Shown here: positions 8,711 through 59,213 of the stretch, one piece after another
Position numbering within the stretch: the first letter of the stretch is position 1
Layout: every line of letters starts with the position of its first letter
Source: a virus
Direction: 5' to 3' (one strand)
IMG/VR virus record: IMGVR_UViG_3300017987_000091
Location: 1-63,384 of that record
Length of the DNA stretch: 63,384 nucleotides
The notes under the pieces: generated by a model
Told to the model about the DNA's origin: nothing
The model's input: the letters and a program-made list of their open reading frames with translations, nothing else
Databases searched by the model: none
Made by a program: the position numbers and the translations under genes

Positions 8711-9445
8711 CTACTGGTCGCCGGCGTCGTGGCCCTGGTGGTCCAGCAGCGCCATCAGGGGATCGCCACCGTCCCCCACCAGGTTCGTCCAGGCATCGAA
8801 CCGGCGCCAGAACACCTCGGCAGCTTCGGCCGTCACCTTCACGGATCGGCCGGCCATCTTCAGGATCGTCATCTTCGGGCCGGGGCCCCGGCTGCGCTGG
8901 TGCTTTTCCGGTGGTGGTTGTTCCTTGGTTTCGTTGATCAGGGGATCGACGCCCAGCGCGTTCATGTCGAAGTCCAGGGACGCCACCAGGTCGTCCAGCT
9001 GCTGCTGATCCCAGGGGAACGTCGTGGCCAGATCTTCGGTGGTGAAGGTCGGCGTTAGGTCGTCGCGCAGCAGTTCGGCCACCTTGATCGCGTCGCTGTC
9101 GAAGCGGTTTTCGTTGAGCTCCATTGCACGGCGGATCGCTTCGGCCCTGCTGATCTTCCCGGCATTGATCACCAGCACCTGGTCCCAGCCCAGATCCCGC
9201 AGGCTGTCCACCCTGTGGTTGCCGTCGAAGACTTCCAGCCGGGGGCCGTCGTCGGTGTCCACTTCCCGCACGTTCAGAACCTGCAGCTGGCCGGATCGGC
9301 GCAGGCTGCCGGTCAGCTTCCTGGCCTTCACGGCGTCGTCGGTTTTGTAGTTCCAGGGGGCCTTCACCAGCTGGCTGACGGGCACCACCTGCAGGGTGCC
9401 TTTGATGTCCAGATCCTTCAGGCCGTTGATCTTTTCTTGTTTCAT
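8711..9445 (-). CDS. ParB/sulfiredoxin-fold protein
   Basis: 244 aa. The N-terminal half has the ParB/Srx nucleotide-binding fold: PVSQLVKAPWNY, then VFDGNHRVDSLRDLG (the G-H-R signature) and ELNENR. The C-terminal part is unrelated to partition ParB and basic. ATG 9445 was chosen over GTG 9466, which would overlap the upstream stop. It directly follows dpdA. Phage members can be CTPases, nucleases or DNA-binding adaptors; a link to DNA modification is inferred only from adjacency. Confidence 0.8.
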   Translation of the reverse strand: MKQEKINGLKDLDIKGTLQVVPVSQLVKAPWNYKTDDAVKARKLTGSLRRSGQLQVLNVREVDTDDGPRLEVFDGNHRVDSLRDLGWDQVLVINAGKISRAEAIRRAMELNENRFDSDAIKVAELLRDDLTPTFTTEDLATTFPWDQQQLDDLVASLDFDMNALGVDPLINETKEQPPPEKHQRSRGPGPKMTILKMAGRSVKVTAEAAEVFWRRFDAWTNLVGDGGDPLMALLDHQGHDAGDQ

Positions 9446-9449
9446 TGTT

Positions 9450-10331
9450 TCACCATTCCACCCCACGGGCAGCCCATAGATCCGTCAGGTATTTTTCATA
9501 TTTCAGGATCTGCTTGAAGGTGTACACACGGCGGGCAATGTATCCCCGCATCCTGGTCCCCGGCACCCTTCTGGCGATCTTGTCGGCCAGCCAGGGCATG
9601 CCTTCGGCGATGGCAGCCTGGATCTGGGAAATGCGCGACATGGTGATCAGCCTGACCGGGGGCCCCGGTTCGAACCGCATGGCGTGCCCCCAGGCCGGCC
9701 CCAGCACGGGGAAGGACCAGTCTGCTGAATGGTAGGGGTAGGCCATCAGGCGCGACGGCACAAAGCTGCCGAAGCAGTGCACCTTCACCTGGGGCCAGTC
9801 GCGCAGCACTTCCCAGGCCTTCCCTTCCCACCGCAGCGTTGCTTCAGCTGCTGGCTGAATGGCCATTCCCCCCAGTGCGATCCGTTGGTGCCCAGCGTTC
9901 AGCTGTCGCTTCAGGACGGCCATGGGCGCCCCGACGTGGGCCACCGGCAGCGGGTGCAGTCCTTCGGCTTCCATGGCCTTCTGATTTCGTGCCGTGGCCA
10001 CGTGGTTCCCGATCACGTCCAGGACGGCGTACACCGCGATCCTGGACTTGAACCCGTGAAGGAACCGGCAGTAGCTGGCCAGGTTGATCGTGGCCCCGGT
10101 GGTCGCTGCGGTGAAGGCCCCCGAATCCATGAACAGTTCACCCCGCGGCCGCGGCAGCAGTTCGCTGCTGTATTCCCCAGGGATGCCGGCCCAGAAGCTG
10201 AAGTCCCCGCAGTGCGGGCCGCCGGCGACGCAGTAGGGGAAGGACCGCAGGATCCTGGTGGCGCCCAGGTCGTTGTACAAGTCGCCTTCTATGGCGCAGT
10301 TCAGGCTTCTGCCGGCCAGGTACAGCTTCAC
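9450..10331 (-). CDS. dpdA: DpdA-like DNA 7-deazaguanine transglycosylase
   Basis: 293 aa with a TGT/archaeosine-transglycosylase-like barrel. MDSGAF (Asp69) matches the DSGGF substrate-pocket motif of tRNA-guanine transglycosylases. YAVLD (Asp105), IALGG (153-155), VHCFG and SADW (Asp204, a candidate nucleophile) follow in the family order. Phage DpdA enzymes exchange guanine in DNA for a 7-deazaguanine made by the Que/FolE enzymes, which protects against restriction. It starts at GTG 10331, overlapping the folE stop, and closes the queD-queE-folE-dpdA set. The assignment rests on motifs plus pathway context. Confidence 0.87.
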   Translation of the reverse strand: MKLYLAGRSLNCAIEGDLYNDLGATRILRSFPYCVAGGPHCGDFSFWAGIPGEYSSELLPRPRGELFMDSGAFTAATTGATINLASYCRFLHGFKSRIAVYAVLDVIGNHVATARNQKAMEAEGLHPLPVAHVGAPMAVLKRQLNAGHQRIALGGMAIQPAAEATLRWEGKAWEVLRDWPQVKVHCFGSFVPSRLMAYPYHSADWSFPVLGPAWGHAMRFEPGPPVRLITMSRISQIQAAIAEGMPWLADKIARRVPGTRMRGYIARRVYTFKQILKYEKYLTDLWAARGVEW

Positions 10332-10963
10332 CTGGTGACACCCCCGGCCAGCTGCAGGAATTCGGCCCTGGCTTCTGGCACGTCGCGCAGTGCGCCCAGC
10401 ATGGCGCTGGTGGTCATGGTCACCCCGGCCTTCTTGATCCCCCTGCATTCAATGCAATCGTGGGTTGCCGTCAGGATCACCCCGACGCCCAGCGGTTCCA
10501 GGTGGTTCTGCATCGCGTCGGCCACCTGCTTCGTGATCCGTTCCTGGATCTGCAGCCGCTTGCTGAAGCAGTCCACCAGCCGGGGGATCTTCGACAGGCC
10601 GACGCAGCGGCCGCCGGCGGGAATGTACCCCACGGCAGCGACGCCGGCGAACGGCATCAGGTGGTGTTCACATGTGCTGCTGAAGGGGATGTTGGCGACG
10701 ACGATCAGCTGGTCGTAGCCTTCGGTTTCGCCGAAGGTGCTGGACAGGATCTGCGCGGGATCTTCCCAGTAGCCGGCCGTCCTTTCGTTCCAGGCGCCGG
10801 CGACGCGATCAGGGGTACCCCGCAGGCCTTCCCGGTTCGGATCTTCCCCGGTAGCTTCCAGCAGCAGCCTGGCGGCCCTTGTCATCTTCGTGAACCTGGC
10901 ATGCCCTTCGGCGATGCCCAGGCCGGCGGTGGGGTAGTACGGCACGTTTCGATCTTCGCCCAT
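10328..10963 (-). CDS. folE: GTP cyclohydrolase I
   Basis: 211 aa, the usual family size. It carries the zinc-binding and substrate motifs SSTCEHHLMPF (about residue 105) and HDCIECRGI (about residue 175), plus GLSKIPRLV. It converts GTP to dihydroneopterin triphosphate, the first step of the 7-deazaguanine (and folate) pathway. ATG 10963 overlaps the queE stop by one base. Its place between queE and dpdA shows that it serves deazaguanine synthesis. Confidence 0.96.
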   Translation of the reverse strand: MGEDRNVPYYPTAGLGIAEGHARFTKMTRAARLLLEATGEDPNREGLRGTPDRVAGAWNERTAGYWEDPAQILSSTFGETEGYDQLIVVANIPFSSTCEHHLMPFAGVAAVGYIPAGGRCVGLSKIPRLVDCFSKRLQIQERITKQVADAMQNHLEPLGVGVILTATHDCIECRGIKKAGVTMTTSAMLGALRDVPEARAEFLQLAGGVTR

Positions 10964-11619
10964 CACTTCCACCCCAGCAGCTTCTGCAGCTGCACCGACA
11001 GCGACCAGCCGGGGTTCCTTTCCAGCCAGTCCTGCAGTTCCCGCAGCATTTCCTTGCTGCAGATCGCGGCACCGCTGCACAGCATAGGCTGGATCGACAG
11101 GTCGCCCACGTCGGCAGCCCACGGCCCCAGCACGTCGGTGGGATCGCCACCCCAGGGCGTCGGCCACAGCACCTTGATTTCGTTGATCGGCAGCTTCGGC
11201 GCTTCCAGCACCTTCGGCGACCAGGTGATCCAGCGCCTGAAGTCTTCGTTGAGCTCCACCAGCAGCCTGTCGTCCTTCGGCGCCACGTGGCCGTTGGTTT
11301 CAATCTGAACCAGGGCCAGTTTGTCCCAGCGGTCCAGGGCGTCCAGCAGTTCGGCGTCCACCTGCAGCATCGGTTCCCCGCTGGTCAGGACCAGGTGGCG
11401 CACCTGGCGATCGTTCAGGTGGGCTTCGTAGTCGATCCGCTCCACCAGGGCGTCGTTGTCCAGCACAAGGTGCGCGTCTTCGTGCTGTGGGGTGTCGCAG
11501 AAGCTGCAGTCCTGATCGCACCCGCTGAACCGAACGAACACCGCCGGCGTGCCGGCGAACGTCCCTTCCCCCTGCAGGCTGGTGAAGACTTCGTGCACGT
11601 CGTACATGGGCCCCGTCAT
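10963..11619 (-). CDS. queE: 7-carboxy-7-deazaguanine synthase (radical SAM)
   Basis: 218 aa. The N-terminus has the QueE signature SLQGEG followed by FSGCDQDCSFCDT, whose three Cys bind the radical-SAM 4Fe-4S cluster. TSGEPMLQ and IETNG follow as in the family. It turns 6-carboxy-tetrahydropterin into 7-carboxy-7-deazaguanine. ATG 11619 overlaps the queD stop (ATGA). Confidence 0.94.
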   Translation of the reverse strand: MTGPMYDVHEVFTSLQGEGTFAGTPAVFVRFSGCDQDCSFCDTPQHEDAHLVLDNDALVERIDYEAHLNDRQVRHLVLTSGEPMLQVDAELLDALDRWDKLALVQIETNGHVAPKDDRLLVELNEDFRRWITWSPKVLEAPKLPINEIKVLWPTPWGGDPTDVLGPWAADVGDLSIQPMLCSGAAICSKEMLRELQDWLERNPGWSLSVQLQKLLGWK

Positions 11620-11966
11620 GGCTGCCACCTGACCACCGATCCGGCGCTTTCTTCCACTTCCACCATGGTCACCCGGTTCCCGGTTCCTTCCAGCCAGGCG
11701 CCCACCGTTTCGACTGCCACGAATTCGGCCAGCCGTTCGGCCGTGGGCTTCTTCAGGATCTTGTTCAGGTCGGTGTGGTCCAGGCCCATCAGCTCCCCCT
11801 TGATCGCGGTGAAGTCCACCAGCATGTCCTTCACCAGCTGGCTGCCCTGGACTTCCACCGTGATGCGCCAGCGGTGCCCGTGGGGGTGTCGGCATGGTCC
11901 AGGGTGATCAGGTAGGTGGTGGGCCGCTTCAATCTCCACCGTCTTGCGAATCGTCCAGGTCGGCAT
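11616..11966 (-). CDS. queD: 6-carboxy-5,6,7,8-tetrahydropterin synthase
   Basis: 116 aa. It has the QueD/PTPS zinc histidines and catalytic Cys (AAHHLPDH, CRHPHGH), the LDHTDLN motif and a C-terminal Glu (EVEESAGS). It converts dihydroneopterin triphosphate into 6-carboxy-tetrahydropterin. It is the first gene after the divergent promoter at 12.1 kb, with GGTGA before ATG 11966. Confidence 0.94.
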   Translation of the reverse strand: MPTWTIRKTVEIEAAHHLPDHPGPCRHPHGHRWRITVEVQGSQLVKDMLVDFTAIKGELMGLDHTDLNKILKKPTAERLAEFVAVETVGAWLEGTGNRVTMVEVEESAGSVVRWQP

Positions 11967-48908: not shown

Positions 48909-48986
48909 TGGTGACCCTAACGGGATTTGAACCCGTGTTGCCGGGATGAAAACCCGGTGTCCTGGACCTGGCTGGACGATAGGGTC
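48909..48986 (-). tRNA. tRNA-Glu (anticodon UUC)
   Basis: A full cloverleaf on the minus strand: acceptor GACCCTA/TAGGGTC, D stem GTCC/GGAC, anticodon stem CCGGG/CCCGG with loop TTTTCAT (anticodon TTC), and T stem ACGGG/CCCGT with TTCAAAT. The encoded CCA follows discriminator A. It reads GAA (and GAG by wobble). Phage genes here use GAA almost only, so it matches the demand. Confidence 0.95.
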
Positions 48987-50481: not shown

Positions 50482-51009
50482 CTATTCACCCCCACAGGGC
50501 CCCGGCACGTGGACCAGGCCGCAGGTGTCGCAGATCGCGGCCGCGCCGGTGTAGTCCTTGCCTGGAATGCCGTAGCGTCCAGGCTTCACCATGGCCACGC
50601 GGTCCTTCTTGCGGCTGCGTTCCTGTGCCAGCACGGCCGACACGGTGCCACTGGTCACCTGGCGGTTCTTGCAGGACTTCTTCACCAGGGGGACCAGTTC
50701 CTGGACGGTCAGCAGTCGGCCTTCAGCTTCCAGCACCTTGGCAATGTGGTCGATCAGTGGTGGGCCGTCCGTCTGGATCTTGCGCTTCTTGCCCTTGTCG
50801 GCCCTGGGGGCCTTCTTCGCCGGCCGTTGGCCTGGTGGGATCGTGACCTTCGGCGGGGTGGTGGTGGTGCCCTTCTGTTCCCAGGTGGGCTTCAGTGGCA
50901 TCGTGGGCCGGGGCTTCGGCTTGCTGGCGGTGGTCGCCGGCGGCCGCGTCGGTGGGGGTTCGTCGTCAGGGTCCAGCAGGTCGTCCACGTCCACCATGGG
51001 GGTGGGCAT
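50482..51009 (-). CDS. Winged-helix and zinc-ribbon-type protein
   Basis: 175 aa. A Pro/Lys-rich disordered N-terminus (1-80) precedes a winged-helix-like domain (LIDHIAKVLEAEGRLLTVQE and SGTVSAVLAQERSR, ending in GRYGIPG) and a small CxxC...C end. It could bind DNA. Its 5' end overlaps the DUF3310 gene by 118 bases, which is unusual here. Confidence 0.65.
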   Translation of the reverse strand: MPTPMVDVDDLLDPDDEPPPTRPPATTASKPKPRPTMPLKPTWEQKGTTTTPPKVTIPPGQRPAKKAPRADKGKKRKIQTDGPPLIDHIAKVLEAEGRLLTVQELVPLVKKSCKNRQVTSGTVSAVLAQERSRKKDRVAMVKPGRYGIPGKDYTGAAAICDTCGLVHVPGPCGGE

Positions 51010-51395
51010 CGGGGGCCCTGTGCGCTGCTGGTCATGGCCGTCGTCGTCGTCGTCGCAGTCGTCGCCGGCGGCGCGTCGTCATCGTCGCCCAGGTCGTCGC
51101 CGGCGCTGAAGTCGGCGCGGTCCCCGCCGTTGTCGCCGGGGTCGCTGGCCACCTGCAGGTTCACCTGGAACCGTAGCCGGCCAGCCTGGACTTCCTGCTG
51201 CTGGATCCACCTGTCCAGGTACCATCTGGCCTTCTTCGCGTCTTCCAGCGGATCACCCTTGCGGCCGATCCTGGCCAGGTACTTGATCACATTGCCAAGG
51301 TGGAACCCCAGATCCCAGGCTTCGATCACGTTGATCGCTTCGTAGGTTCCCGGCCTGTAGTGGTCGGGGTGGTTCACTTGTTCCTTGGTTGTCAC
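50892..51395 (-). CDS. DUF3310 protein with out-of-frame tail
   Basis: 167 aa. Residues 5-70 (VNHPDHYRPGTYEAINVIEA, NVIKYLARIGRKGD) match DUF3310, a common phage nucleotide-metabolism-associated family. After an acidic run the last 55 residues look like an out-of-frame reading of the next gene. A one-base slip in the GAC repeat near 51040-51070 would fuse it to the winged-helix protein. Confidence 0.75.
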   Translation of the reverse strand: MTTKEQVNHPDHYRPGTYEAINVIEAWDLGFHLGNVIKYLARIGRKGDPLEDAKKARWYLDRWIQQQEVQAGRLRFQVNLQVASDPGDNGGDRADFSAGDDLGDDDDAPPATTATTTTTAMTSSAQGPRCPPPWWTWTTCWTLTTNPHRRGRRRPPPASRSPGPRCH

Positions 51396-51652
51396 CCTTC
51401 CAGCTCCCCCCCGGCCACGCGCTTGGCCAGCTTCGCCTTGGCCCAGACAATGGCGTCCCCCTTGTCCTTCGGGGGCACGAACATGTTGGTGGCTTCGACG
51501 GTGGCAAGTTCACACTGGCCGACTTCTTCCTGGTAGGTGGCGATCACGTCGTCCTTGCTGGGGCCCTGGACGATCCCGCCGTCGTGGGCGACCAGGATCC
51601 AGGTGTGTTCTTCGGGGGTGCCGATCTTCAGCAGGTGGATCAGCTTTCGCAT
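51392..51652 (-). CDS. Hypothetical small early protein
   Basis: 86 aa, alpha/beta (TWILVAHDGGIVQGPSKDDV). A related pattern (TPARREWWLLGNDGTMMVGK) is seen in the 78-aa protein at 60864-61100, so they may be distant paralogues. ATG 51652 has GAGGAA upstream and overlaps the previous gene by 13 bases. Confidence 0.62.
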   Translation of the reverse strand: MRKLIHLLKIGTPEEHTWILVAHDGGIVQGPSKDDVIATYQEEVGQCELATVEATNMFVPPKDKGDAIVWAKAKLAKRVAGGELEG

Positions 51653-53556
51653 GGTGGTTCCTCGCTTTCTTCGGCGTCGTCGCCGTTGGTTGGTGTGCAG
51701 TCCTTGTTTGGACAGCATGGTGGTTTCACGGTGCAGAAGTCCAGGAAGTAGGGGCAGCTGACGCAGCCGCGCATGGGGGGAACCGTCAGGCCGATGATTT
51801 CCAGGGCTTCGGCCAGCCGGTCCACCGACTTGCGGCCGAAGTTCTCGACCTTCAGCAGTTCCCGGCGCCCATAGTCCAGCAGCTGGCCCACCGTTTCGAT
51901 CTTCTGGTTTATGAACATGTTTTCGATCCTGGTGGCGATCCCGTCGTCCCCGATTTCCAGCTGGGCCACGGGGATCTTCATGCGCCGATCCCGCGTCATG
52001 TCGTAGCCTGCAAACCGTGGGGGCGTTTCCTGCTTGTCCAGTCGCCCTTCCAGTTCGTTCATGCGTTCAGTCAGGTGCAGGTGCTGCTTGCCGTCGTGGC
52101 GTTCCAGGTTGCGCAGCCTGGCGCTGTACCTGTCAACGTCTTCCAGGGCGCGTTCCAGCTTGTTCAGCCTGGTGTTGGTGCGCTTCTTGTAGCCTTCCAG
52201 CTGCTGTTCGGCTTTCTGCAGGTGCGCTTCCTGCACCATGCGCAGATCATGGAACTGGGCTGCTTCTGCTTGCTGGGCTTGCAGCTGCCGCACCTGTTTT
52301 TCCAGGTCGTCCACCGCCTGGAAGATGGCACGATCCCGGCCGATGTCCCCGATCCGGTCAAACAGGGAAGGCCCCCCGTCTTCCTGGACATGGTAGCCGC
52401 ACAGCTGGCACCGTTCCCCATGGACAGGCACGCCAGGGCCCCCACAGTAGGGGCAGCGGCCGGCCGCGTCCTTCTTCATATTCGGGGGCACCCCGGCCCA
52501 GCTGTGGACCTGGGCGTGGATCGTCGTGCTGGCTTCCACGTCGGCGTCGTCGCCGATTTCGTGGACTTTCCAGTCAGGTGGTTCACCTTGATATCCACAG
52601 TCAGGGCATGGGATCAGCGGTCCAGGGCAGCCGAAGATCGGCCCGGTGCCCCCGCACTTGGAACATGTGGCCTTCGGCTTGTCGCCGTCGTCGTTGGCTT
52701 CCAGCTTCTGCAGCCGCTGTTCCATGGAATGAACCAAGGCGCGCAGCTGGATCAGCTGCTGGTCCAGGGTACGCTTCTGCAGCTTGATAAAGTACCTTCT
52801 GGCGCCGTCGCCTTCACAGCGGTCACAGGTGACTTCCCCACCTTGGAAACCGATCCGGCCCGAACCGTTGCACATTTCGCACAGGGGATCGCTGGTGGCC
52901 GTGTCGTCGCCGGCGTCCTTCGCTTCCAGCTGGGCTTCCAGCGTGTCGGCGATACTGTCAAGCCGTGGGGACGGGATGCTGATGCCGCAGGCAACCAAGG
53001 CGCGCAGTTCCTGCACGACGCCCTGGACAACGGCGATCAGGTCGCCGTACCTGTCGCCCAGCCTGTCGGCGTGTTCCTGGTGGCGCCTGGCTGTGCCACG
53101 CCATTGATCCCGTTCCACCCGCAGCTGACCTGCTTCGTGTTCCCAGTTGTCGCGCTGCCGGCGCAGGTGGCCGGCTTCGGCCTTCAGCTGATCACGTGCT
53201 TCACCCTTGCAGGCGTGCAGCCCTACTTCCCCGCAGGCTGCGCACCGTCCCAGCTGTTCATTCCCTTCCCCTTCTATGGGGGTGAACAGCTTGTCGAGCG
53301 GTGCGGGCCCTTCTGGGGTGTTGTCGGGGTTCCAGCCAGGCTTCAGGCGCCCACCGGCCGGCATTAGCTGTTCAGCCATGAACTGCTTGGCCAGCTGGTC
53401 CAGGTCCAGGGGGCCCAGGAAGTCGCCGTCTTCCAGGCTGAAGTCGTAGGCTTCAGACAACCAGCCGATCCCGCCGTCCCCCCCGACAACGATCACGGTC
53501 CACGATCCTGGCTTGCCGGCCAGGTAGTAGCCTGGTTTCGTTGGTGTTTCAGCCAT
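51640..53556 (-). CDS. Multi-zinc-finger coiled-coil protein with an RNA polymerase alpha-CTD-like domain
   Basis: 638 aa. Order: N-terminal domain, CAACG...C zinc site (about 105), coiled coil (120-200), DnaJ-type fingers CEMCNGSG...CDRCEGDG (about 227-255), CSKCGGTG...CPDCG (about 305) and CPYCGGPG...CQLCG (about 370). A second coiled coil (about 400-520) follows. Residues 535-590 resemble the RNA polymerase alpha CTD (RIENMF, ELLKVENFGRKSV) and keep the equivalents of DNA-binding residues R265, N268, G296, K298 and S299. A Cys cluster ends it. Likely DNA- or transcription-associated; the exact role is unknown. Confidence 0.72.
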   Translation of the reverse strand: MAETPTKPGYYLAGKPGSWTVIVVGGDGGIGWLSEAYDFSLEDGDFLGPLDLDQLAKQFMAEQLMPAGGRLKPGWNPDNTPEGPAPLDKLFTPIEGEGNEQLGRCAACGEVGLHACKGEARDQLKAEAGHLRRQRDNWEHEAGQLRVERDQWRGTARRHQEHADRLGDRYGDLIAVVQGVVQELRALVACGISIPSPRLDSIADTLEAQLEAKDAGDDTATSDPLCEMCNGSGRIGFQGGEVTCDRCEGDGARRYFIKLQKRTLDQQLIQLRALVHSMEQRLQKLEANDDGDKPKATCSKCGGTGPIFGCPGPLIPCPDCGYQGEPPDWKVHEIGDDADVEASTTIHAQVHSWAGVPPNMKKDAAGRCPYCGGPGVPVHGERCQLCGYHVQEDGGPSLFDRIGDIGRDRAIFQAVDDLEKQVRQLQAQQAEAAQFHDLRMVQEAHLQKAEQQLEGYKKRTNTRLNKLERALEDVDRYSARLRNLERHDGKQHLHLTERMNELEGRLDKQETPPRFAGYDMTRDRRMKIPVAQLEIGDDGIATRIENMFINQKIETVGQLLDYGRRELLKVENFGRKSVDRLAEALEIIGLTVPPMRGCVSCPYFLDFCTVKPPCCPNKDCTPTNGDDAEESEEPPCES

Positions 53557-53755
53557 TGGACACCCCCTTGATCCTGGCGTTGGGGTACAGCTCCTGTATT
53601 TCTTCCACGGTATGGCCGGCCCTTCGCATCTGCTTCGCGTTCCATGTTCCGTCGCAGCAGTCTTCCCAGCTTACTGACTTGTGACAGCACCGGCACACAC
53701 CATCAGGGCACAGTTCAGCCGTTTCCTTGTCGCAGATATTGCAGCGTTCAGCCAT
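53549..53755 (-). CDS. Small Cys-rich zinc protein
   Basis: 68 aa. CNICDKE...CPDGVCRCCHKS...CC gives two likely zinc sites. The end (AKQMRRAGHTVEEIQELYP) looks like a short HTH-type helix pair. ATG 53755 overlaps the previous gene by eight bases. Unknown function. Confidence 0.62.
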   Translation of the reverse strand: MAERCNICDKETAELCPDGVCRCCHKSVSWEDCCDGTWNAKQMRRAGHTVEEIQELYPNARIKGVSNG

Positions 53756-54272
53756 TGCCGTCCCCCTTCCCGTCCACCACCACCCCCTTGGGCCGCAGTT
53801 CAGGCACCAGGCGGTCCTTGCCCAGCCGTTCCCACAGGTGCAGCACCCCGTCGAAGGGGGTGACTTCTGACGCCGGCGGGAACACCTGCACCACGACGCT
53901 GCTGCGCCTGAACATGGCTTCCCGCACCAGTTCCATGTCGTGGTGCGTCGGCATGCCGTAGGGCCGATCGGGGTTGGACAGGCTGACATGGAACCACGGG
54001 GGCCCGTCGTCGGGGCGTTCCACGCTGGCCATGATCCTGTTGTCGCGGATCATGAAGTAGGCCCCCGCGAAGTTCGGCATGAACAGGGGGCCCTTCAGTT
54101 CGGGGTTCACGATCGTGGGCATGGCCCGCTTGATCTGGTGGTACTGTTCGATCTGGGCGTCGCTGGTGGGGACGGGGCTGCGCCCATCGGCCGCGGCCTG
54201 GGCCGCCTTTTCGGCTTCGGCGTCGTCCATGGCCTTCGCCACGTCGCTTTTCAGTTCGGTGTTGTCTTGCAT
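53748..54272 (-). CDS. Conserved-type hypothetical phage protein
   Basis: 174 aa. The second half (WFHVSLSNPDRPYGMPTHHD, VVQVFPPASEV, LHLWERLG) has a phage-protein pattern often seen near nucleotide and modification genes, with no known role. The first 60 residues are an acidic Ala-rich helix. Confidence 0.62.
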   Translation of the reverse strand: MQDNTELKSDVAKAMDDAEAEKAAQAAADGRSPVPTSDAQIEQYHQIKRAMPTIVNPELKGPLFMPNFAGAYFMIRDNRIMASVERPDDGPPWFHVSLSNPDRPYGMPTHHDMELVREAMFRRSSVVVQVFPPASEVTPFDGVLHLWERLGKDRLVPELRPKGVVVDGKGDGNG

Positions 54273-54277
54273 CGGGT

Positions 54278-54658
54278 TCACTCCGTTGGTGTTCCCTGCG
54301 CCAGTCTGAACAGCACAGGGGTGTGGTTTGTGTGTTCCACCAGGCCTTCGGCCACCAGCTGCCACAGGGCACGATCTGGGGGCTTCCTGAAGGCCACGTC
54401 AGCGGTGTAGTCCATCAGCTGCACCATGGCAGCGTTGAAGGTGCAGGGGCCGTGCTGGGCCAGGTGGTCCAGCAGGAAGCACCGCCAGGCTTCGACGCTG
54501 TGCCGCGCCATGTCCTTGCGCCAGGCGGTTGCGCTTTTCTTGCGGGCACCCCGTGGGGTTCGGCGTGGATCGTCGGGGTGGCGCACCAGGTGGACGTATT
54601 CGTGAAGCCCCTGGCGTTCCAGGGGCCCCGTGTGCCAGGTGGTCGCCGGCGCCGTCAT
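54278..54658 (-). CDS. Hypothetical protein, possible winged helix
   Basis: 126 aa, basic at the start, then FLLDHLAQHGPCTFNAAMVQ and WQLVAEGLVEHTN, a pattern like a winged-helix domain. It overlaps the end of the interrupted small gene. Confidence 0.55.
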   Translation of the reverse strand: MTAPATTWHTGPLERQGLHEYVHLVRHPDDPRRTPRGARKKSATAWRKDMARHSVEAWRCFLLDHLAQHGPCTFNAAMVQLMDYTADVAFRKPPDRALWQLVAEGLVEHTNHTPVLFRLAQGTPTE

Positions 54659-55326
54659 GGCTTCACCTGGTCAACCTGGAAGGCGATCACCTTCACGGTG
54701 GGGTTGTCTTCCCAGCGGTACCCCCGGCGGCCGTTGATCTGGTGGGTTATTTGGTTCGGCAGATTGTGGAAACAGTGGACTGGGACAAGCCTAGAACACG
54801 CGCAGCATGCCGACGACTGCACAAGCCGTTGGAAACAGCCCAACGAAGATGATCCCGTTGAGCGTCGGTCAGCTTTGCTGCATGGTGTTTTTCCCCTTCG
54901 CAGCTTCTGCCATGCGCTTTTCGATCCAGCCAGTTTTCTTGCTGCGTTCCCCACCGCAGATTTTCCGGCCTGTTGTTCGATCGGTCGCCGTCTAAATGCC
55001 TTGTTTGTAGCGTGCTCGGTTCTGGCATCCCATGAAAAGCCATGCAGACCAAACGGTGCACGTTCTTGGTGATCTTCTTTCCTTCGTGGCAAAGCGACAC
55101 CGATTGATATCCATTTTTTGCCTTGAATCCGACAAGTGGATACCAGTCTACATAGTGTTTGTGCCCAAAACCTGCGTACTTGGTTCGTGAATAGATCTGC
55201 CCATCGTTCCCGGCCATGTAATCGTCGTTGGGAGCTATTGGAATAGGCTTCAGGATTACACCATTTGATAGTTCCATAGGCCCTATGGTTATCCCGTTCC
55301 CGAACCCCTGTCAAGCGCCAGGTCAT
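54655..55326 (-). pseudogene. Small gene interrupted by an HNH insertion
   Basis: The start (ATG 55326, MTWRLT) overlaps the upstream stop. The end (YRWEDNPTVKVIAFQVDQV) runs into the next ATG with the usual overlap. Between them lies a lower-GC segment coding in another frame for an HNH endonuclease. The long open frame across it is probably accidental. The original gene would have been around 35-45 codons. Confidence 0.5.
54747..55277 (-). CDS. HNH homing endonuclease (NUMOD/HNH_3 type)
   Basis: 176 aa. RHLDGDRSNNRPENLRWG is the HNH_3 motif (His, Asn, Asn). The N-terminus (YMAGNDGQIYSRTKY) is the usual NUMOD4-like lead, and the C-terminus has a DNA-binding HTH (RRHAARVLGLSQSTVSTI). Its DNA is visibly less GC-rich than neighbours and contains GAG/CTC, so it is a recent arrival. 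Confidence 0.88.
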   Translation of the reverse strand: MELSNGVILKPIPIAPNDDYMAGNDGQIYSRTKYAGFGHKHYVDWYPLVGFKAKNGYQSVSLCHEGKKITKNVHRLVCMAFHGMPEPSTLQTRHLDGDRSNNRPENLRWGTQQENWLDRKAHGRSCEGEKHHAAKLTDAQRDHLRWAVSNGLCSRRHAARVLGLSQSTVSTICRTK

Positions 55327-57611: not shown

Positions 57612-57856
57612 ATGCTTTCCCCTTTCAACCAGGGGTTGTCTTCCCTGGCGCGGTTCACCTTGCGGGCCACGTCTTCCAGGTGGTCCTTCAGGTCGTTGCT
57701 GTGGTGCAGGATCCCCAGTTCGATCCCTTCATTGATCGCTTCCAGGTATCTGCGGTGCCACTTGCCCAGCTGCACGAACTGCGACAGCGGGCCCTGTTTC
57801 TGCGTCAGCTTCATGGCGATCCCTGCGGGCATGTCCTTGTCCTTTCGCTTCGTCAT
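57596..57856 (-). CDS. Hypothetical early protein
   Basis: 86 aa, helical and basic at the start (MTKRKDKDMPAGIAMKL). ATG 57856 overlaps the methyltransferase stop (ATGA). Unknown. Confidence 0.6.
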   Translation of the reverse strand: MTKRKDKDMPAGIAMKLTQKQGPLSQFVQLGKWHRRYLEAINEGIELGILHHSNDLKDHLEDVARKVNRAREDNPWLKGESIWPKE

Positions 57857-58521
57857 TGGTTGTTCAGGCGCACGATCGACGCGCGCACTTCTTCCCCTGC
57901 GGTGCTGGGGCATTCCAGGCCGCAGCAGTCCCAGCCAGGCCGATCGCGCCTGGCGAATAGCTCGAGGTATGGCCCCGGCAGCATGCGTTCCAGCTTGTCC
58001 TGCAGGGCTTCAGGCTTCACGCTGTGCTTCGTCGCCGGCGCGAACACCAGATCCCGTTCGGACTTGGTGCGCAGGTGCTGGTATATCGATCCCCGTGTGC
58101 CCACCAGCAGCAGTTCCTTGCAGGAACGGGCCAGCCGGCCCATGCCGAAGGCCATGCCGTCAGGCATCCAAAGATCGGGAAACCGCGCGGTTCCTGGGGT
58201 GTCGGCCACCTTGTCGGCCATCTGCCCCAGCCAGTCCCCCAGGCCCTTCGGTTTCCGCGTTTTTGCCCAGATCCACACCTGCTTGAAGTCGAAGCCCCAG
58301 CCGGCCAGGACGTGCAGGCCATCGGGGATCAGCGTCGCAGGGCACCACAGGGCTATCAGGGCGTCGTCCTGGGCCAAGGTGCCAACCTGCAGGGCAGCCA
58401 GTTCGGCGGTGGTCAGGGTGGCGTACTGAGCGGCCGCGCCACGCTTCACGCTGGTGGGGCTGTGGGCCAGCAAGTCGCCGAAGGCCCACGGCGGATCAGC
58501 TACGATCACGCGGTACTTCAT
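57853..58521 (-). CDS. MT-A70-family adenine methyltransferase
   Basis: 222 aa. VIVADPPWAFGD has the catalytic DPPW motif near residue 10, and later GTRGSIYQHLRTKSERDLVF and KPEALQDKLERMLPG complete the family pattern. It transfers methyl from SAM to adenine N6, most likely in DNA. The target site is unknown; GATC is worth testing because it is abundant here. ATG 58521 overlaps the upstream stop. Confidence 0.88.
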   Translation of the reverse strand: MKYRVIVADPPWAFGDLLAHSPTSVKRGAAAQYATLTTAELAALQVGTLAQDDALIALWCPATLIPDGLHVLAGWGFDFKQVWIWAKTRKPKGLGDWLGQMADKVADTPGTARFPDLWMPDGMAFGMGRLARSCKELLLVGTRGSIYQHLRTKSERDLVFAPATKHSVKPEALQDKLERMLPGPYLELFARRDRPGWDCCGLECPSTAGEEVRASIVRLNNQ

Positions 58522-59213
58522 GACACCCCCCCCGGCCACTGTCGTGGACCGTCCAGGCCGGTGTTGGCCTTCACGAAGATCGGGCGTTCCAGGCGTTCCG
58601 CCACCTTCACCATCTTGTTCACCAGCTGCTGGTCAGGCTTCGGCGCCCCGGCCCCCGTCTGGGAACCGACGATCAGCCAGTCCAGGCCGGTCAGGTATTC
58701 ACGATCCACGGGCCCCCGGATCGGTTCCAGGGATACGAACCGCACCCCAGTCCCCGGCACCGACCACAGGACGCTGATGCGCCAGGCTTCGTCCATGGTG
58801 GTGACCGAAACCCCCAGCCAAACGTTGTCTGGGATCCGGCCGCCGGCGTCGTGCCAGTCCTGGATCTTGCTGGGGTTCTTCGTCAGTACAGCGAAGACGT
58901 GCTGGGGGCACTGTTCCGCCACGCTGAACACGTCGTTGATCCAGGTGAAGGGAACCCAGTGGCCGAACATGTCCCCCATGGAAACCGTGAACACGAACCC
59001 CGGCTGCTTCACCGTCGTGGGTTCCAGGATCCTGGTGGGGTGGAAGGTCGGTTCAAAGCCGGCTTCGTACCCCGGCACCCCCATGCCCTGCAGGCGCTTC
59101 GCGAAGGGCCTGGCGTAGCAGTAGCCGCACCCGTGCCGGCACCCTGTGATCGGGTTCCAGGTGTACCCCGTGCGGCCGGGGGCGTGCGTCCATTCGATCT
59201 TTGTGCGGTTCAC
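58518..59213 (-). CDS. DUF5131 (phage Gp37/Gp68-like) protein
   Basis: 231 aa. TKIEWTHAPGRTGYTWNPIT followed by GCRHGCGYCYA is the family signature, with a radical-SAM-like Cys triplet. The family is frequent in phages next to methyltransferases and has no settled role. It starts at GTG 59213 with AGGGGG at good spacing. Confidence 0.88.
   Translation of the reverse strand: MNRTKIEWTHAPGRTGYTWNPITGCRHGCGYCYARPFAKRLQGMGVPGYEAGFEPTFHPTRILEPTTVKQPGFVFTVSMGDMFGHWVPFTWINDVFSVAEQCPQHVFAVLTKNPSKIQDWHDAGGRIPDNVWLGVSVTTMDEAWRISVLWSVPGTGVRFVSLEPIRGPVDREYLTGLDWLIVGSQTGAGAPKPDQQLVNKMVKVAERLERPIFVKANTGLDGPRQWPGGVS

Follow-up and report, generated by a model that had tools for sequence, protein, structure and literature searches.

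This locus raises the question of what a phage would do with a protein that couples the C-terminal domain of the RNA polymerase alpha subunit (alpha-CTD) to cysteine clusters and coiled coils. The window analysed here is the whole of IMG/VR virus record IMGVR_UViG_3300017987_000091 (63,384 bases). A first-pass annotation, made from the sequence, had described such a protein at 51640-53556. The open reading frame lies there, on the minus strand, and encodes 638 aa. Its codon usage agrees with the rest of the phage, and the gene is located between genes for a DnaB-like helicase and a RuvC-like resolvase and genes for terminase and portal. The phage origin that had been claimed for the protein is supported.

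The gene is closely packed with its neighbours (Table 1). Its ATG overlaps the stop codon of an upstream gene for a 67-aa protein in ATGGCTGA, and this start/stop overlap occurs twice running (53530-53780, minus strand), for the 67-aa gene and then for the 638-aa gene. The 67-aa protein is without a Pfam match, and a family match (Pfam included) was not found for the 86-aa protein downstream. The overlapping genes look like a translationally coupled run. Shortly downstream, at 50482-51009 (minus strand), is a gene for a 175-aa protein with a C-terminal Cys knuckle; a HARE-HTH identity was considered for this protein and rejected (14.1 bits, below cut-off; no PDB match).

Table 1. Coordinates of the 638-aa gene, its parts and its neighbours (residue numbers refer to the 638-aa protein).
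Feature	Position	Strand	Evidence or remark
638-aa protein with Cys clusters, coiled coils and a C-terminal alpha-CTD	51640..53556	-	ORF, codon usage, overlaps at both ends
67-aa Cys-rich protein, upstream	53549..53752	-	stop overlaps start of 638-aa gene in ATGGCTGA
DUF7694 protein, next gene upstream of 67-aa gene	53748..54365	-	PF24746, 39.9 bits; ends in ATGGCTGA
86-aa protein, downstream	51392..51652	-	overlaps end of 638-aa gene
Cys cluster 1, residues 105-116, CAACGEVGLHAC	53209..53244	-	
Coiled coil 1, residues 115-189	52990..53214	-	modelled helix 109-189, maximum pLDDT 87; heptad bias p 0.0015
Cys cluster 2, residues 226-247, two CxxCxGxG	52816..52881	-	best stretch of sub-threshold PF00684 match
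Short helix with a weak heptad pattern, residues 255-290	52687..52794	-	model; p 0.03
Cys cluster 3, residues 298-320, CSKCGGTG...CPDC	52597..52665	-	
Cys cluster 4, residues 368-386, CPYCGGPG...CQLC	52399..52455	-	
Coiled coil 2, residues 409-508	52033..52332	-	modelled helix, maximum pLDDT 82; heptad bias p 0.0015
alpha-CTD, residues 528-592, with R543, N546, N572, G574, K576, S577	51781..51975	-	PF03118, PDB matches, model and Foldseek, residue map
Cys cluster 5, residues 598-620, C-terminal of alpha-CTD	51697..51765	-	

Profile search places an alpha-CTD near the C-terminus. Specifically, the match to Pfam family PF03118 spans residues 539-585 and scores 35 bits (E 1.2e-8), above the gathering cut-off of 23.8; in the genome search it scores 39.5 bits. 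A PDB sequence search returned RpoA chains only, the best of them cyanobacterial (2.4e-5). HHH_5 reaches 12.5 bits, under its cut-off, and the domain matches RpoA rather than other helix-hairpin-helix (HhH) families. We modelled residues 512-600 with AlphaFold (AF2) from a 10-sequence alignment; its four helices follow one another as in an alpha-CTD, with core pLDDT of about 76-81. The best 50 Foldseek matches in the PDB are all RNA polymerase alpha chains or complexes; many alpha-CTDs match with probability 1.00, among them the alpha-CTD-DNA structures 1lb2, 3n97 and 9zum. The TM-score over the target is 0.90 for 9dvt_A and 0.87 for 1lb2_E, which superposes at 1.4 Å. Among the matches listed, one row alone passes E 0.001, which is to be expected of a domain this short. 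The two-HhH alpha-CTD fold expected at residues 535-590 is thus present in the model, and by sequence and predicted structure residues 528-592 are a genuine RNA polymerase alpha-CTD.

The DNA-contacting face of the domain is intact. E. coli R265, N268, N294, G296, K298 and S299 correspond to R543, N546, N572, G574, K576 and S577, and all six are identical; five of these had already been aligned by eye, and N294 can be added. Of the protein-contact faces, the 261 determinant faces sigma-70 and the 287 determinant faces CAP in E. coli. D259 of the former is kept and E261 is replaced by G, while in the latter E286 and V287 are both replaced by R.

The same pattern is seen across 18 phage alpha-CTD proteins, in which DNA-contact positions are kept far oftener (R265 in 17/17, G296 in 18/18, S299 in 16/18) than sigma- or CAP-facing ones (E261 in 3/16, V287 in 1/18), with the proviso that the patterns used to collect the set included some of the scored residues. 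For R265, N268, N294 and G296, conservation is therefore in part a product of the selection, whereas K298 and S299 did not belong to the patterns used in the protein scans. N294 and G296 are, in addition, structural residues that shape the fold. The pattern of conserved residues speaks for DNA binding rather than for mimicry of the protein-contact faces of alpha, and the 638-aa protein likely binds DNA through its alpha-CTD.

The rest of the protein is built from Cys clusters and helices. CxxCxGxG occurs in four exact copies (at residues 226, 244, 298 and 368) and CxxC in eight copies, which fall into five clusters; none of 20,000 shuffles contained as many of either motif. Judging from these motifs, the clusters probably bind zinc. 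Their earlier description as DnaJ-like zinc fingers holds for the motif and no further. CxxCxGxG is common to the 638-aa protein and the DnaJ central zinc domain (PF00684), but the profile scores 17.8 bits where its cut-off is 32.7. Moreover, the CxxC pairs lie scattered among the coils, whereas the domain in DnaJ is a compact unit of four repeats. A J domain with HPD was not found in the Pfam scan, nor was a PDB relative of the Cys region. Both coiled coils that had been claimed are recovered as long helices (residues 109-189 and 409-508), each with a heptad bias of p about 0.0015. The single-sequence model of the full-length protein is poor (mean pLDDT 50) and usable for helices only. From the sequence and this model, the coiled coils may mediate oligomerisation.

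Our preferred reading, held tentatively and with slightly less than even confidence, is that the 638-aa protein is a phage-encoded, DNA-binding transcription regulator with the alpha-CTD as its DNA head. The head would grip upstream DNA via the residues that RNA polymerase uses on UP elements. The coiled coils would form an oligomer in which several heads act together, and the Cys clusters would serve as zinc knuckles, keeping the chain together and touching host RNA polymerase or another partner. Such an assembly would most likely compete with, or replace, host alpha-CTDs at promoters and thereby shift transcription to phage genes. We counted two further observations for the regulator reading, namely that several phage alpha-CTD proteins carry the transcription-factor DNA-binding domains HTH_17 and sigma-70 region 4, and that the gene lies between the DnaB/RuvC-like and terminase/portal genes. 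Against it we counted that many proteins outside transcription also bind DNA by an HhH fold, and that in the region of the 638-aa gene no excess of UP-like or sigma-70 promoters was found above shuffles; no promoter or UP-element signal in the phage points to a particular target. The T4 proteins Alt and ModA ADP-ribosylate alpha R265 (PMC2988021), a precedent for phage action on the alpha-CTD-DNA contact.

In a rather unlikely alternative, the alpha-CTD is a generic HhH DNA clamp and the coiled-coil oligomer bridges or coats phage DNA, as a DNA organiser or an accessory of replication or packaging, and leaves transcription untouched. The long coiled coils would suit this role, as would the nearby DnaB-like helicase, RuvC-like resolvase and terminase genes. 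A weak similarity to SMC/Rad50 points the same way, but it is confined to the coils, where such matches are generic; moreover, the Pfam scan found neither an ATPase nor an SMC domain in the protein, and the head matches RpoA, not other HhH families. It is improbable that the protein is instead an alpha mimic or decoy that titrates out host factors binding the alpha-CTD, be they activators, sigma or anti-alpha factors. The modelled fold, a true alpha-CTD, is what a decoy would need, but the surfaces for sigma-70 and CAP are altered and the DNA face is kept; this is not decisive, as the surfaces compared are those of E. coli and may not be those of the phage host.

A role centred on the Cys clusters seems more doubtful still: they would bind RNA or unfolded protein in an RNA-binding or translation-linked protein, with the alpha-CTD as a minor appendage. 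The CxxCxGxG motifs and weak matches to the DnaJ centre and Anti-TRAP suggest it; both matches are under their curated cut-offs, and the missing J domain and PDB relative argue against it. A role as an alternative alpha subunit, incorporated into the host RNA polymerase, is largely ruled out and very improbable. RpoA models do match, but at their C-terminal part only (TIGR02027, PRK05182) and far below cut-offs. The TIGR02027 match covers only positions 228-294 of 298 (33.5 bits versus a cut-off of 227.8), and the protein is without the N-terminal dimerisation and assembly domain. We therefore prefer the regulator reading over a DNA organiser, an alpha decoy and an RNA or chaperone role. From the first-pass annotation, the fold, the DNA-contact residues, the Cys motifs, the coils and the phage origin stand, while DnaJ-likeness beyond the motif does not. 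A bolder proposal, that the protein is a transcription factor whose oligomeric array of alpha-CTD heads, carried on a scaffold of zinc knuckles and coiled coils, rewires host RNA polymerase, and that it belongs to a widespread, unstudied class of phage proteins with a borrowed alpha-CTD as their DNA-binding module, is speculative and on balance unlikely.

The genes of the window include those for terminase, portal, head protease, major head protein, tape measure and baseplate; this structural set identifies a contractile-tailed phage, an unclassified myophage. The identity of its large terminase is at most about 36% over most of its length in the IMG/VR search and 32% against annotated phages, and no DNA-level match was found to the stretches of the window that were tested. 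By these terminase and DNA searches the phage is isolated. The alpha-CTD is absent from all 80 IMG/VR loci related by terminase, many of which are incomplete.

Several other genes of the window deserve mention. A queuine tRNA-ribosyltransferase-like protein (phrog_887) and a QueE-like radical SAM protein (phrog_2076) are encoded at 9450-11895 (minus strand), possibly as a 7-deazaguanine DNA-modification set, and are adjoined by a ParB-like protein (8711-9466). An MT-A70 methyltransferase (PF05063, 87 bits) lies beside a DUF5131 protein (PF07505, 165 bits) at 57853-59213 (minus strand). A tRNA-Glu (ttc) is located upstream of the small terminase gene (48909-48986, minus strand), and an HNH endonuclease gene (phrog_59), probably of homing type, is at 54747-55277 (minus strand).

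The first-pass annotation knew of no described phage family with such an architecture. For the exact architecture this stands: no full-length relative was found in annotated phages, IMG/VR or GTDB genomes, where the IMG/VR and genome scans used exact short peptides and may miss distant relatives. A DNA pattern for KVENFGRK gave six matches in genomes, none of them an alpha-CTD, and a GC-rich alpha-CTD DNA pattern gave no match in IMG/VR. Five Cys clusters, two coils and an alpha-CTD thus appear to be a combination unique as far as searched. However, phage proteins with an alpha-CTD are recurrent and already annotated, as in proteins of uncultured Caudovirales, Rhodococcus phage Finch and Mycobacterium phage Mithril that carry the UniProt name 'RNA polymerase, alpha subunit, C-terminal'. 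The architecture is therefore new so far, while the alpha-CTD in phage proteins is known, though little studied; in the literature that we searched, no paper on phage-encoded alpha-CTD proteins was found. Most of these proteins match no PHROG by their alpha-CTD, so the class seems under-catalogued.

Judging from sequence, the alpha-CTD in phage proteins is a recurring mobile module with varied partners. The 638-aa protein matches neither HTH_17 nor sigma-70 region 4 in the Pfam scan; both accompany the alpha-CTD in three phage and metagenome proteins (L002, L005, L007), which look like transcription factors. A sigma-like HTH without HTH_17 is found in L010 and L012, a pyrophosphatase-like domain in L003, coiled-coil-like sequence (by eye) in L014 and L115, and a Cys ribbon in L108/L109, with two CxxC motifs preceding the alpha-CTD of L108. 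This recurrence raises the general question of whether the alpha-CTD is a portable DNA-binding module of phages. T4 modifies the DNA contact R265 of the host alpha-CTD by ADP-ribosylation (PMC2988021). Phage proteins that bring an alpha-CTD of their own, its DNA face intact and its protein-contact faces changed, suggest a second way of controlling the promoter DNA upstream.

Compared with these phage proteins, the 638-aa protein resembles L002, L005, L007, L010 and L012 in being multidomain with the alpha-CTD at or near the C-terminus; those five differ in having a sigma-like HTH (and HTH_17 in the first three) and no Cys clusters. L014, L115 and L108/L109 are about 125-205 aa with one module each, and their likeness is established for the alpha-CTD only. 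The UniProt-named proteins share the predicted alpha-CTD fold and are mostly 100-240 aa. Compared with RpoA, of which the closest solved is that of Synechococcus (8syi / 9dvt), the domain has the same fold and about 38% identity over 61 columns. All six tested DNA-contact residues are common to it and E. coli RpoA, whereas sigma- and CAP-contact residues are changed, and in place of the alpha N-terminal domain the 638-aa protein carries Cys clusters and coiled coils.
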